A stretch of DNA of 39,904 nucleotides from Chlorobiota bacterium (GTDB lineage: Bacteria > Bacteroidota > Bacteroidia > Bacteroidales > B39-G9), in the NCBI GenBank assembly GCA_013152655.1, contig JAADFW010000283.1, positions 1 through 39,904 of the forward strand. The letters are read 5' to 3'. Shown here piece by piece: positions 25,242 to 32,736 of this stretch. A program made the position numbers and the translations under genes. Position 1 is the stretch's first letter, and each line of letters begins with the position of its first letter. The notes under the pieces were generated by a model. The model worked only from the letters and a program-made list of their open reading frames with translations, was not told the origin of the DNA and made no database searches.

Positions 25242-26669
25242 TTGAATAACAGGCTAATATACAAACCATTTGCTGTAATTATCTTATTAATGTTTTTGTT
25301 TTCATGTAATACAGACAAAAATAAAAAAGATGAACAGAAAGTTACAATTGATTTAGAACAAATAATTAAAAGAGGAAAATTAATAGCGCTTACTGACTTT
25401 AATTCAACAAGTTACTTTATTTACCGGGGAGAACCCATGGGTTATCAGTATGATATGTTAAAATTATTAGCTGATTATTTATCAGTTGACCTGGAAATAA
25501 TTGTTAGTAACGACTTAGAAGACACATTTGATAAACTTAATACAGGTAAATGCGATTTGTTAGCATTAAACCTAACAGTAACAAAACAACGAAATAAATT
25601 TTTAAATTTTGTTGAGCCATATAGCTATACAAAGCAAGTTCTGGTTCAGCGAAAACCTAAAGAATGGACAAAAATGAGTAGAAATACGTTAGAAAAAAAA
25701 CTTTTACGTAATCAATTAGATTTAGCCCGTAAAACAGTTTATGTGCAAAAAAATTCAGCCTTTAGCAAGAGACTTAAAAATTTATCGGAAGAAATTGGTG
25801 ACAGTATAAATATAATTGAAGTAGAAAATTATTCAACCGAACAATTAATCTCATTGGTATCGAAAGGAGAAATAGATTATACTGTTAGCGATGAAAATGT
25901 TGCGCTTTTAAATCAGACTTATTATCCTAATATTGATGTAAAAACGGCAATAAGCTTTCCCCAAAAATTAGCCTGGGCTGTCAGAAAAAATTCTCCTGAG
26001 TTATTAGCTACTTTAAATGAATGGGTTATTAACTTTAAAAAAACTGCCAGATATAGAATTATTTACAATAAGTATTATAAGAATAAAAAAGCTACACACA
26101 GGAAAAGCAGTGGATATTTATCTTCGCAAGGTGGAAAAATATCAGATTATGATGCTATTATTCGCAGGTATAGTAAACAAATTGGTTGGGATTGGCGTTT
26201 ATTAGCCTCATTAATTTATCAGGAATCAAGGTTTGACCCCAAAGCAGAATCGTGGGCAGGAGCTTTTGGCTTAATGCAATTAATGCCAAGAACAGCCAGA
26301 AAATATGGAGCTAATCAACGTTCTTCACCAACAAAAAATATAAAAGCCGGTGTTCAGTTTATTAAATGGTTAGACAAAAACCTAAAAGATTCAATTGCGA
26401 ACAAGCAAGAAAGAATTAAGTTTATATTAGCTTCATATAATGTTGGATTAGGACACGTACAAGATGCCATGCGATTAGCTGTAAAGAATGGGAAAAATCC
26501 AAAAAAATGGACTGATAATGTTGACTATTATATTTTGAATAAGTCGAACCCTGTTTATTATCAAGACCCGGTAGTAAAATATGGTTATTGCCGTGGTTCA
26601 GAAACGTTTGCTTATGTTACTGAAATTTTAGAACGTTATGAGCATTATAAATTAATTATAAGCAATTAA
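25242..26669 (+). CDS. mltF: MltF-like lytic transglycosylase lipoprotein
   Basis: This is a two-domain envelope enzyme that cleaves peptidoglycan to anhydromuropeptides. Its 475 residues start at a TTG; no usable ATG precedes the signal. The lipobox is FLFSC with Cys22, predicting outer-membrane anchoring. About residues 40-265 form a periplasmic solute-binding type 3 domain (GKLIALTDFNSTSYFIYRGE, then LNLTVTKQRNKFLNF). The SLT domain follows from about 300: SLIYQESRFDPKAESWAGA with catalytic Glu328, FGLMQLMPRTARKYG, and ASYNVGLGHVQDA. It is divergent from the RmlD-like gene and convergent with sodN across 31 bp without a clear terminator. Confidence 0.95.
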   Translation: MNNRLIYKPFAVIILLMFLFSCNTDKNKKDEQKVTIDLEQIIKRGKLIALTDFNSTSYFIYRGEPMGYQYDMLKLLADYLSVDLEIIVSNDLEDTFDKLNTGKCDLLALNLTVTKQRNKFLNFVEPYSYTKQVLVQRKPKEWTKMSRNTLEKKLLRNQLDLARKTVYVQKNSAFSKRLKNLSEEIGDSINIIEVENYSTEQLISLVSKGEIDYTVSDENVALLNQTYYPNIDVKTAISFPQKLAWAVRKNSPELLATLNEWVINFKKTARYRIIYNKYYKNKKATHRKSSGYLSSQGGKISDYDAIIRRYSKQIGWDWRLLASLIYQESRFDPKAESWAGAFGLMQLMPRTARKYGANQRSSPTKNIKAGVQFIKWLDKNLKDSIANKQERIKFILASYNVGLGHVQDAMRLAVKNGKNPKKWTDNVDYYILNKSNPVYYQDPVVKYGYCRGSETFAYVTEILERYEHYKLIISN

Positions 26670-26700: not shown

Positions 26701-27189
26701 TTATTTATGCTCATGCGTATGAAAATACGCCTCTTCAAATAACGCTACTGTTTCCCGTAATTTGTCAATGTATTCCATATCTGTTGTTTGTTTAGCTTTC
26801 ATAGCATACACAGCAATTTTATGCAAAAGTGTAAGTTGAGTAATATACTTTTGATAATTTTCATCATCGGGTTCAACAATTCTTATACGTTGATGCAAAA
26901 AATATTGACTAACAATATCCTGTATTTTTTGAGCATGCTCGTCTTTATTGTTTACCCATCTTACTAATTGATTATAGTTTACAGTTTCTTCTTTTGATAA
27001 CGCTTCAATTTTAAGCATTGATTTTTCAATAGTACTTATATCTTCATGCAACAAAGCTATTCGAATAGAATCTTCGTAAATACCACAAGGTATTTCACAA
27101 TGAGAATACGCTTTTTGAGAAAAGCTAAATAGAAACAAAGCAGCCATAACAGCTATTAAACTACTTGATACATTTTTTAATAATTTCAT
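26701..27189 (-). CDS. sodN: Nickel-containing superoxide dismutase, exported
   Basis: This enzyme disproportionates superoxide using nickel. The 162-residue precursor has a Sec-type signal, and a cut after AYS (residue 29) would leave the mature protein starting HCEIPCGIY. That is the nickel hook HCxxPCGxY, in which the free N-terminal His, Cys2 and Cys6 bind nickel. The rest matches the NiSOD four-helix family (NYNQLVRWVNNKDEHAQKI, YFLHQRI, LTLLHKIAVYAMKAKQTTD). The mature form would be 133 residues against 117 in Streptomyces. The C-terminus is His-rich (HTHEHK). No SodX-type peptidase gene is nearby. A TonB receptor gene precedes it on the same strand. Confidence 0.95.
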   Translation of the reverse strand: MKLLKNVSSSLIAVMAALFLFSFSQKAYSHCEIPCGIYEDSIRIALLHEDISTIEKSMLKIEALSKEETVNYNQLVRWVNNKDEHAQKIQDIVSQYFLHQRIRIVEPDDENYQKYITQLTLLHKIAVYAMKAKQTTDMEYIDKLRETVALFEEAYFHTHEHK

Positions 27190-27339: not shown

Positions 27340-29625
27340 TTAAGGCAAGGCAAAAATAATTTTAATCATAAAATTTCTTTCGTTTTGTGGCATTTTTGCA
27401 GCATAATAACTACCGTTGGCACTACGCACACCCGGATGAAAATATTCTGAATTAAAAAGATTATTAACTGACAATTGTAATTTTACACTACTAATAAAAC
27501 GATATGTAATAGCCATATTTGCAATAAAATAAGGATCAATATAATCTAACGGATTATTTTTTATTGTTGTATTCTTTCCTGTTTTTCTCTTACCCATATA
27601 ATTAAACCGGGCATTTACATTCAAATTATCGAATAGAACAGCATTAATTCCAAAATTCAATTTATGACTGGCAATATCGCCAATTCTAACTAAAGTATCA
27701 CGCCCGGTATTTTGCGGGTTTGTAAAAGTATAGTTAATATAAGAACTATAATTTCCGAACTTAGCTTTCATATCAGTCTGAAAACCTTGTATTACCAATG
27801 ATCCGGTAGATTGATGTTGTGTGGTTTCGATGGTGCGCCCTTCCTCATCAACATAATTTACATCTACTGTACCTATAACATTGCTGTAATTAGCCTGATA
27901 TGCTGTAAATGAGGCATATATTCTGTCATTTATTTTCATTCCGAGGTTTGCTTCAATATTATTTACACGTTCAGGAACCAGATACGGATTGTTAAGCAAT
28001 CTGCCGGGAGTTGTTCCATATTTAACCCAGTTTTCCGCATCTTTAAAAGCTTCAGAATAAATTAATTTAAAATTCAGCGCTTTTTTTCCATAAATAATAG
28101 CAAGTTTTGGGTTAAAAACAGCTCCATATCCTCCTGTTTCTCTAACTCGATTGTAATCAAGCCTGCCTCCGGCAACAAAATCAAAATTTTCAACAATATG
28201 CCAGTTAAATTGCGAATAAACTCCAATATCAAAGCCGGGGAAATAATTGCCTCCTATAGTACCCGGATTTATTCCAGTCTCAGAAGGATTTTCAACTAAG
28301 CTGGTAATATACTCGCCTTGTATTAAACTTCTTCTAAATTCAAATCCTGAAATTATATCTATTTTACTAATAGGGGAATAGACTGCTGTCAGCTCCGAGC
28401 GTACTTGCTGCGAATACACATACCAAAAAGAATGTAACCAATATGGCTGAACCGGATTTGAACTTAAATTTCCGGTACTGTCTAAAAGGTCAGTTAAAGT
28501 AAAAATTTGATTCAAATAACCTTTGTAATAAAACTCCTCACAAGAGCCTTTTAATTGATGAATTTTATAACGTGTAAGATTTGTTAATGTAAATTTATCG
28601 CTAAATTTTTTTGTATAATTAATATAAAAAAACGAATTTTTAGGAACCCACTTCCCTCCAAAATCAGTTCCTAATTCATAATCATCTCTATACCATGCTC
28701 CATAGCCTTCGTTGCGTTGCCACATTTGTAACCCAATAGTAAAATTCTCAATTTTCATTTTCCCATTAATAAGCCAATCTTTTGTAGAATTGCTGTAATG
28801 TGGCTTTACTCCATTTAAAACCGAGTCGTTGTAAAAAGCTTGGTTATCTAACTCAATTGCAGTATTAATTATTGATAAATCATTAGTATCTAATATACGG
28901 CTATAATAATTAACATCGTAGCCTGACAAATCATAATCCCAATCGTTGTATTTTGAAAGATTCATTTCGTCTGATTTATAAATCCTTCCCGTTAACATAA
29001 TAAAAGCTTTATTTATACGAGATGTTATAGTAGCATCAAAAAACTTTGTATTCCATGAACCATAATTGGCAATACCGTTTAAATTGAATTTAGTATTTTG
29101 TTTTAGTGTTTTTGCAGGATCTTTCGTAATAATGTTTATAACACCAACAAATGCATTAGCGCCATAAAGTGTTGATGCAGGCCCGTAAATTATCTCTATT
29201 CGTTCAATATTCGACAACGGATATTGGCGTGATAGCCAAACACTTCCACTCCACAGGTCATTCTCCTCTACACCATCAATTAACAAAAGCGTCCTGTCTG
29301 TATTATTTGAACGATAACCTCTTTGATATATTTGCGAATATTGTGTTCCATTGCCTCTTGATATGTCAAAACCTGCAAAATCGTGTAGTACTTGCTCTAA
29401 GTCAATATATCCTCGTTCAATTATTTCTTGTCCGGTTATTACTGTAACAAATTGCGGTGCTTTAGTAAGTTTTTCTTCGTTTTTAGAAACAGAAGAAATT
29501 TTCAGATTCAATAATTCTTCAATTGAATAATTTACCAATTCTCCAACTTCTGTAGTATCATTTTGTGAAAAACAATAAAATGCAGAGAATAAAAAAATGG
29601 AAATAGTTATAAATTTCTTATACAT
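27340..29625 (-). CDS. TonB-dependent outer-membrane receptor
   Basis: This is an energised outer-membrane importer of 761 residues. The signal peptide ends near CFSQ. The plug domain (about 45-165) has APQFVTVITGQEIIERGYID, GYRSNNTDRTLLLIDGVE and IERIEIIYGPASTLYGANAF, typical of vitamin B12/siderophore-type receptors. The remainder is a long beta-barrel with many aromatic strands, including a segment NLFNSEYFHPGVRSANGSYY before the last strands. There is no CarboxypepD_reg domain, and no SusD partner gene follows, so it is not a SusC. The substrate is unknown; its place 150 bp upstream of sodN suggests metal or metallophore uptake, an inference only. Confidence 0.94.
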   Translation of the reverse strand: MYKKFITISIFLFSAFYCFSQNDTTEVGELVNYSIEELLNLKISSVSKNEEKLTKAPQFVTVITGQEIIERGYIDLEQVLHDFAGFDISRGNGTQYSQIYQRGYRSNNTDRTLLLIDGVEENDLWSGSVWLSRQYPLSNIERIEIIYGPASTLYGANAFVGVINIITKDPAKTLKQNTKFNLNGIANYGSWNTKFFDATITSRINKAFIMLTGRIYKSDEMNLSKYNDWDYDLSGYDVNYYSRILDTNDLSIINTAIELDNQAFYNDSVLNGVKPHYSNSTKDWLINGKMKIENFTIGLQMWQRNEGYGAWYRDDYELGTDFGGKWVPKNSFFYINYTKKFSDKFTLTNLTRYKIHQLKGSCEEFYYKGYLNQIFTLTDLLDSTGNLSSNPVQPYWLHSFWYVYSQQVRSELTAVYSPISKIDIISGFEFRRSLIQGEYITSLVENPSETGINPGTIGGNYFPGFDIGVYSQFNWHIVENFDFVAGGRLDYNRVRETGGYGAVFNPKLAIIYGKKALNFKLIYSEAFKDAENWVKYGTTPGRLLNNPYLVPERVNNIEANLGMKINDRIYASFTAYQANYSNVIGTVDVNYVDEEGRTIETTQHQSTGSLVIQGFQTDMKAKFGNYSSYINYTFTNPQNTGRDTLVRIGDIASHKLNFGINAVLFDNLNVNARFNYMGKRKTGKNTTIKNNPLDYIDPYFIANMAITYRFISSVKLQLSVNNLFNSEYFHPGVRSANGSYYAAKMPQNERNFMIKIIFALP

Positions 29626-31149: not shown

Positions 31150-32736
31150 GTGAATTTATTAAATTATTTTTTAAGAAATTTTAATCGGTATTTACTATTC
31201 TTATACTTTTTTATTGCAAACAATTATTTTTTAAGTGCACAGCATACAAATATTTTAATTAACAATTTAAATTTTCCTAATGAGCCTTCAATTGCAATTA
31301 ATCCATTAAATACTAATTCTCTTGTTGCCGGTTCAAATTTAAACAAAGTCTTTTATTCTAATAATGAAGGATATTCCTGGCAATATAATTCTCTTACTTC
31401 CGAATATGGCGTTTGGGGCGACCCATGTGTAATTGCAGGAAAGAATAATACATTTTTTTATTTTCATCTTTCAAACCCTGATGACGGAAACTGGATTGAC
31501 AGAATTGTGTGCCAAAAATCTACTGATGGAGGAATTAACTGGAATTCAGGAACCTACATTGGGCTAAATGGGACAAAAGCACAAGATAAAGAATGGGCTG
31601 TTTATGACAGGCAAAATGATATTATATATGTAACATGGACACAGTTTGATGAGTATGGAAGCGTACGGCCTGAAGACCAATCGTTAATTCTGTTTTCAAA
31701 ATCAATTGATGGTGGAAATAGCTGGGCGACACCAATTGTTATAAGTGACGAAGCCGGAGATTGTATTGATGACGATAATACGGTTGAAGGTGCTGTTCCG
31801 GCTATTGGCCCCAACGGAGAAATTTTTGTTTCATGGGCAGGCCATGAAAAAATTTATTTCGACAAATCAGTTGATGGTGGTGAAACATGGCTTAATCAGG
31901 ATAAAATAATTGCAAATATGCCCGGAGGCTGGGTTTTTGATATTCCCGGAATAAACAGATGTAACGGAATGCCAATAACTACTTGTGATACAAGCCGGGG
32001 AATTTACCGTGGCAATATATATGTGAATTGGGCAGACCAGCGCAATGGTGAAAACAATACTGATATTTTCATTACAAAATCGGTTGATGGTGGAGAAACA
32101 TGGAGCAATGCAAAACGAGTAAATGATGATATAACTGAAAACCATCAGTTTTTTTCATGGATGACAATTGACCAGGCAACCGGTTATATTTACATTGTAT
32201 TTTACGATCGCAGGAATTATGATAATAATTATACAGATGTTTTCATGGCTTTATCAAAAGATGGTGGAGAAAGTTTTACAAATTTTAAAATTAGTGAAGA
32301 ACCTTATTATCCTTATTCATCTGTTTTTCTGGGTGATTATATCAATATAACTGCATATAATAATATAATAAGGCCTATTTGGGTTAGTTATGAAAATGAT
32401 GAATTAAATCTTTGGACAGCCGATATTAATATTGATTCTTTAGAAACATCTTCCAACTTGTCTGTTCCTTTTGTTGTGGAACAAAATTATCCCAACCCTT
32501 TTTCCGAATTAACAATTTTTACCTTTAGATTAAAAAGGAAATCAAAAATTAATCTTTACATATATTCTACTTTTGGAGAAAAATTAGCAACAATTATTGA
32601 TAATGAAGAAAAAAATATTGGTAAATATGTATATACACTTCAGGCAAACATATTAAATCTGAAACCGGGTGTTTATTTTTTAGAATTAACTTCAAATAGC
32701 CAAAAAATTATTAAGAAAATGATTTATATAAAGTAA
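31150..32736 (+). CDS. Asp-box (BNR/sialidase-like) protein secreted by T9SS
   Basis: This is a 528-residue secreted protein with a GTG start. The signal peptide ends near FLSAQ. The body is a probable beta-propeller with at least five Asp-box turns of the S-x-D-x-G-x-x-W type: KSTDGGINW, KSIDGGNSW, KSVDGGETW (twice) and SKDGGESF. NNEGYSW is a degenerate copy. The catalytic Arg triad and Tyr/Glu of true sialidases could not be assigned, so enzyme activity is uncertain. The C-terminus is a T9SS type A sorting domain, with NYPNPF at 446-451, then strands ending LKPGVYFLEL and a Lys-rich end. It stands alone between trpS and the sensor gene. Confidence 0.92.
   Translation: MNLLNYFLRNFNRYLLFLYFFIANNYFLSAQHTNILINNLNFPNEPSIAINPLNTNSLVAGSNLNKVFYSNNEGYSWQYNSLTSEYGVWGDPCVIAGKNNTFFYFHLSNPDDGNWIDRIVCQKSTDGGINWNSGTYIGLNGTKAQDKEWAVYDRQNDIIYVTWTQFDEYGSVRPEDQSLILFSKSIDGGNSWATPIVISDEAGDCIDDDNTVEGAVPAIGPNGEIFVSWAGHEKIYFDKSVDGGETWLNQDKIIANMPGGWVFDIPGINRCNGMPITTCDTSRGIYRGNIYVNWADQRNGENNTDIFITKSVDGGETWSNAKRVNDDITENHQFFSWMTIDQATGYIYIVFYDRRNYDNNYTDVFMALSKDGGESFTNFKISEEPYYPYSSVFLGDYINITAYNNIIRPIWVSYENDELNLWTADINIDSLETSSNLSVPFVVEQNYPNPFSELTIFTFRLKRKSKINLYIYSTFGEKLATIIDNEEKNIGKYVYTLQANILNLKPGVYFLELTSNSQKIIKKMIYIK

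Follow-up and report, generated by a model that had tools for sequence, protein, structure and literature searches.

In the open-access literature surveyed, nickel superoxide dismutase (NiSOD) is a cytoplasmic enzyme for which a dedicated protease is required. The window analysed here, a stretch of DNA of 39,904 nucleotides from a Chlorobiota bacterium, carries a NiSOD gene in which the nickel-binding hook stands directly behind a predicted export signal. This raises the question of whether removal of the signal could itself expose the N-terminal histidine (His1) of the enzyme. The comparisons presented below make it very probable that the gene encodes an exported periplasmic NiSOD, in which a signal peptidase I cut after Ser29 would create His1 and nickel would be loaded outside the cytoplasm.

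The NiSOD gene and its product

The features of the locus are listed in Table 1. The NiSOD open reading frame has an ATG start and no internal stops, lies on the minus strand exactly where the first-pass annotation had placed it, and is the sole NiSOD copy in the 4.0-Mb genome. In a profile search, the Pfam family Sod_Ni (PF09055) matches residues 26-158 with 102.6 bits (cut-off 25, E 3e-29). The sodN equivalog TIGR02753, which represents classical NiSOD, gives only 41.4 bits, under its cut-off of 90 bits, and because of this low score we read the protein as a divergent NiSOD. With the same model, five exported homologues tested scored 29-50 bits and one classical paralogue 204 bits.

Table 1. 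Features of the NiSOD locus in the window
Feature	Position	Strand	Evidence or remarks
Predicted exported nickel superoxide dismutase precursor, 162 aa	26701..27189	-	ORF, PF09055, AlphaFold model
Predicted Sec-type signal peptide, residues 1-29, ending ...QKA-Y-S	27103..27189	-	Sequence; 76 homologues, the window protein among them, share the design
Ni-hook HCEIPCGIY, residues 30-38 (mature 1-9)	27076..27102	-	Sequence; conservation in homologues
Predicted mature four-helix-bundle domain, 133 aa	26704..27102	-	AF2 helices, Foldseek
His-rich C-terminal tail HTHEHK	26704..26721	-	His counts in homologues
TonB-dependent receptor upstream of NiSOD	27340..29625	-	Pfam Plug + TonB_dep_Rec; gap about 150 bp
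MltF-like protein	25242..26669	+	Solute-binding family 3 and SLT transglycosylase domains
Secreted repeat protein	31150..32736	+	C-terminal region resembles type IX secretion sorting domain

Signal peptide and the boundary before His1

The first 29 residues of the precursor read MKLLKNVSSSLIAVMAALFLFSFSQKAYS, and HCEIPCGIY begins with the His at position 30. A signal ending A-Y-S directly before this motif, as described in the first-pass annotation, is indeed what the sequence contains: the n-region has a charge of +2, a hydrophobic core and a 5-residue c-region follow, and Ala and Ser occupy positions -3 and -1. The signal contains no lipobox (Y-S-H-C does not qualify) and no twin arginine; an RR pair is found in 2/46 exported homologues.

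The boundary was examined by a rule-based check and an offset scan, in which the -3/-1 rule was defined as [AGSVTILC] at -3 and [AGS] at -1. The exported set comprises 76 proteins, window included, of which 46 form a first set and 30 a blind set; the latter are the members examined in the phylum of a Lentisphaerae genome, for which compliance with the rule had been predicted beforehand. The window protein has the n-, h- and c-regions of a Sec/signal peptidase I substrate and satisfies the rule at the mature N-terminus. Within the first set, 39/46 exported proteins (85%) satisfy it exactly at His1, and only 9-48% do so when the boundary is moved 1-12 residues upstream. In the blind set, HC[EQ], a hydrophobic core and the -3/-1 rule at His1 are each found in 30/30 proteins, as against at most 12/30 for the rule at offsets -1 to -8. 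Over the whole exported set, a residue pair compatible with signal peptidase I stands exactly before His1 in 69/76 proteins. The best 10-residue Kyte-Doolittle mean ahead of the hook ranges from 1.90 to 3.80 in the exported proteins (n=46) and from -0.44 to 1.61 in the classical ones (n=17). The combination of hook, hydrophobic core and -3/-1 rule at the His recurs across four or more phyla and is, judged from the sequences, beyond chance.

Classical propeptides also end A-x-A or V-x-A and satisfy the -3/-1 rule in 17/17 cases, which is what a kinship of SodX with signal peptidases would lead one to expect; the rule alone therefore cannot separate the two maturation routes. The features which do separate them, as far as sequences tell, are the hydrophobic core and the gene context, with SodX missing from the exported route.

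Seven exported homologues lack a usable signal peptidase I site directly before His1. Six of these (L014, L015, L068, L069, L072 and L073) form one planctomycete subclade (support 99/92), with V, L, R or W at -1 and, in most members, a 10-20-residue spacer between the core and His1; the seventh is L053, with A-F-T before His1. The subclade probably needs a second cut or a maturation protease, and its poor -1 residues and long spacers indicate that two-step maturation probably exists there. A comparable process may be proposed for the window protein, in which S-F-S before Q also satisfies the rule: the first cut would fall elsewhere, for example behind residue 24, and another peptidase would trim the product to His30, so that export and exposure of His1 would be separate events. 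We consider this unlikely, as the core-to-cut spacing of the window signal is normal (5 residues), and in 69 of the 76 proteins, the window protein among them, the only place where the -3/-1 pattern is conserved is the one immediately preceding His1.

Distribution of SodX

A whole-genome search for sodX, which the first-pass annotation had suggested as a check, returned nothing above the cut-off in the genome of the window. The best match to SodX (TIGR02754) scores 22.5 bits, where the cut-off is 63.25, and lies in a 476-aa LepB-like frame, which a second LepB-like gene adjoins; with genome completeness at about 92%, the absence is not absolute.

At classical NiSOD loci, an S26/SodX gene is found nearby in all 16 testable cases (14 G genomes and a Novosphingobium plasmid by TIGR02754, and Nonomuraea by eye; the locus of G505 was left out because the contig breaks off there). 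No S26/SodX gene adjoins any of the 46 exported NiSOD genes; for adjacent SodX in 15/15 classical versus 0/46 exported genes, Fisher's test gives p 1.4e-14, uncorrected for kinship. SodX also stays below the curated cut-off in all 41 genomes with an exported NiSOD alone. Four genomes (G402, G503, G572 and G594) contain both NiSOD classes, one copy of each, and in these SodX lies beside the classical NiSOD only.

Boundary conservation, the lack of a lipobox or RR pair and the lack of SodX all agree with the first-pass proposal of export with exposure of His1 by signal peptidase I. This reading is well supported comparatively, and from it we infer cleavage before His30, periplasmic nickel loading and activity.

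Two NiSOD classes and their distribution across bacterial lineages

The 76 exported NiSODs, which start HC[EQ]xPC behind a hydrophobic signal, come from Bacteroidota, Zixibacteria, Planctomycetota, the phylum of a Lentisphaerae genome and Ilyobacter. On reading of the N-terminus, 46 proteins were assigned to the exported class (HC[EQ]) and 17 to the classical class (HCD); the classical NiSODs have short, non-hydrophobic propeptides. When the mature domains were placed in an IQ-TREE phylogeny, a single branch with support 100/100 divided the two classes, and the separation is long (2.37 + 2.5 changes per column). The window protein lies on the opposite side of this branch from the classical class. 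The tree bears on a further reading, namely that the window protein is a NiSOD of the usual cytoplasmic kind and that a SodX-type peptidase removes its N-terminal extension as a propeptide. Classical propeptides are likewise short and obey the -3/-1 rule, but the strongly hydrophobic core of the window signal is absent from 17/17 of them and SodX is found neither in the genome nor as an adjoining gene; with the position in the tree added, this reading is barely credible. The export design is, from what the sequences indicate, the norm across an entire deep clade and not a peculiarity of the window gene.

Nine relatives were identified by scanning species genomes; they belong to MAGs or genomes labelled Bacteroidota, Zixibacteria, Planctomycetes and Lentisphaerae. 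The Ilyobacter polytropus relative was found by a plasmid search. PF09055 is present in 3/395 sampled genomes of the window's phylum, 46/294 genomes of the phylum of Planctomycetes Poly30 and 61/388 genomes of the phylum of a Lentisphaerae genome. A NiSOD gene was found in none of 40 sampled relatives of the window genome. Inheritance within the genus was rejected on this count, and because the sampled kin lack the gene, the window NiSOD is patchy in its group and probably horizontally acquired. In one genome (L076, G409), the hook of an exported NiSOD starts a 452-residue open frame, compared with ~135 residues for the domain, which would represent a fusion or a C-terminal extension.

Fold, active site and C-terminal tail

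The AlphaFold2 model of the mature part, based on a 10-sequence alignment, has a pLDDT of 88.8 and a pTM of 0.82, with helices at 11-36, 43-69, 83-105 and 109-127; within the apo hook, the first residues have pLDDT <50. The 15 best PDB matches in Foldseek are all NiSODs (e.g. 1q0d, 1t6u and 3g4x), with TM scores of 0.64-0.80, 15-19% identity and modest E-values (best 0.015). A PDB search with the single sequence gave no match, and a profile search reached 1q0d with E 0.0022. The modelled protein has the NiSOD four-helix-bundle fold; the structural matches and the Sod_Ni score bear out the earlier statement that the rest of the protein fits the family.

The Ni-hook pattern His1-Cys2-x-x-Pro5-Cys6-Gly7-x-Tyr9 is present in the window protein, and His1, Cys2 and Cys6 are its predicted nickel ligands. 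An alignment with SodN homologues, also suggested in the earlier annotation, confirms the ligands as invariant: H1, C2, P5, C6 and G7 are found in 46/46 exported homologues, and position 9 holds Tyr in 38 of them and Phe in the other 8. What we take to be the S. coelicolor NiSOD sequence served as the alignment guide, one row of the tree and one search query. Relative to this reference, the Arg39 and Tyr62 positions do not vary among the 46 exported proteins (as Arg48 and Tyr67), Asp3 is replaced by Glu or Gln, and the position of Arg47 is taken by an invariant His56; Glu17 is apparently not conserved, and a nearby Glu20 is invariant. At the classical NiSOD site, E17, N31, R39 and R47 have been named as neighbours of a modelled ligand (PMC10685849). 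The second shell of the exported class seems rewired, and SOD activity of the window protein is not assured, because some of these residues differ (Arg47 to His56; Glu17).

The second-shell changes, the His-rich tail and the very low sequence score to characterised NiSODs could also point to an exported nickel-binding or nickel-sequestering protein without SOD activity, similar in logic to the N-terminal-His binders DUF6702 and anglerases; secreted His1 metal binders do exist (PMC12537917). This is quite improbable: the hook, Pro5, Gly7, Tyr9 (Phe in 8/46) and the Arg39/Tyr62 positions are near-invariant (n=46), which binding alone would hardly preserve, and the overall fold is modelled as that of a NiSOD.

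At least three His residues are found in the last 20 amino acids of 28/45 exported proteins and 0/18 classical ones (p 2e-6, uncorrected for kinship), and in 14/30 proteins of the blind set. That the HTHEHK tail of the window protein might collect nickel or another metal outside the cytoplasm is speculative, a guess from its composition.

Proposed maturation and relation to known systems

In the maturation we propose for an exported NiSOD, the unfolded precursor would cross the inner membrane via Sec, and signal peptidase I (LepB) would cleave after Ser29 to leave an N-terminal His1, whose amine and imidazole would join Cys2 and Cys6 to make up the nickel site. The protein would have to fold and acquire its nickel outside the cytoplasm, perhaps aided by the His-rich C-terminal tail. 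The nickel-containing enzyme would remove superoxide coming from the respiratory chain or from outside, and the signal-less Fe/Mn SOD would serve the cytoplasm. Whether NiSOD in general consists of two ancient classes, one cytoplasmic and SodX-needing, the other widespread and exported, with a housekeeping signal peptidase making the active site and nickel captured outside the cytoplasm with the aid of the His-rich tail, appears to us evenly balanced.

The Streptomyces SodN/SodX system shares with the window protein the Ni-hook HCxxPCGxY, the four-helix bundle and the requirement for an N-terminal His. However, SodN is about 18% identical, is cytoplasmic and has an HCD hook, a non-hydrophobic propeptide and an adjacent SodX gene, whereas the exported class has an HCE or HCQ hook, a signal peptide and no SodX. 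Cyanobacterial NiSOD has been described as cytoplasmic, with the inference that a strain lacking SodX might not be able to make use of its NiSOD (PMC8346466). In the NiSOD of the planctomycete Roseiconus lacunae (WP_230780104.1), the signal ends A-S-A directly before His1 (Table 1 of PMC12537917); the likeness is one of signals. That 2025 signal-strapping paper used a planctomycete NiSOD signal (A-S-A before H) as bait for other metalloproteins and retrieved many NiSODs; in its available part, the R. lacunae protein serves as bait only, without analysis of maturation, SodX absence or clade. Because the bait signal came from a planctomycete NiSOD, the signal-peptide-bearing form is implicitly known from PMC12537917, and the window protein is best described as a known enzyme in a variant form.

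Algal ubiquitin-NiSOD fusions (PMC6332867) also carry a cleavable module ahead of the NiSOD domain, but are eukaryotic and have ubiquitin in place of an export signal. A precedent is given by bacterial LPMOs, which gain their N-terminal His through signal-peptide removal (PMC6423801); LPMOs and histidine-brace proteins share a metal ligand made in this way, but differ in using copper and in their unrelated fold and reaction. Periplasmic CuZnSOD (SodC) presumably does the same work, clearing superoxide outside the cytoplasm, but is an unrelated protein with different metals. No study of a periplasmic NiSOD was found in the open-access literature. A survey of sodN diversity by Dupont et al. in 2008 reportedly distinguished four sequence clusters; it may already mention signal peptides, and novelty is uncertain mainly on that account.

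If the exported class is real, the absence of SodX is uninformative for that class, and a nickel SOD would function periplasmically in Bacteroidota, Planctomycetota and other groups. Periplasmic nickel loading would then take place on a thiol hook exposed to oxidants and disulfide formation, and recombinant NiSOD carrying its native His1 could be obtained simply by exporting it.

Gene neighbourhood and physiology

The TonB-dependent receptor gene and the NiSOD gene are possibly cotranscribed. A dedicated nickel-receptor operon is unsupported, as the receptor adjoins NiSOD only in the window, and no conserved gene neighbourhood was found across the 12 loci compared. The receptor has partial matches in five kin genomes, mostly at 30-40% identity; from these sequences, the receptor may also be a recent arrival. 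On the other side, the MltF-like gene lies tail to tail with NiSOD. The product of the secreted repeat gene is 35% identical, over the aligned part, to that of L017 1578-3593, which is likewise near an exported NiSOD.

The genome of the window contains one Fe/Mn SOD, without a signal, and no CuZnSOD was found in it. Replacement of periplasmic CuZnSOD by exported NiSOD is unsupported: CuZnSOD occurs in 3/33 genomes with exported NiSOD versus 2/20 NiSOD-less genomes of the planctomycete phylum (p = 1). It is found in 5/11 classical-only genomes versus the same 3/33 (p = 0.016, a small contrast uncorrected for kinship). The genome also has a complete [NiFe] hydrogenase large-subunit gene, and therefore nickel is used; open reading frames resembling hypC, hypD and hypE, named from sequence reading, lie upstream of it.

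In G385 (L018, 6413-13423), the gene for the exported NiSOD is enclosed by a cbb3 oxidase locus, in the order ccoNO, ccoP, NiSOD, ccoG, ccoH and DsbD_2 on one strand; this single case fits protection from superoxide made at the respiratory membrane. In a Lentimicrobiaceae MAG (L010, 2643-6504), secDF is followed by an exported NiSOD ~170 bp away on the same strand.
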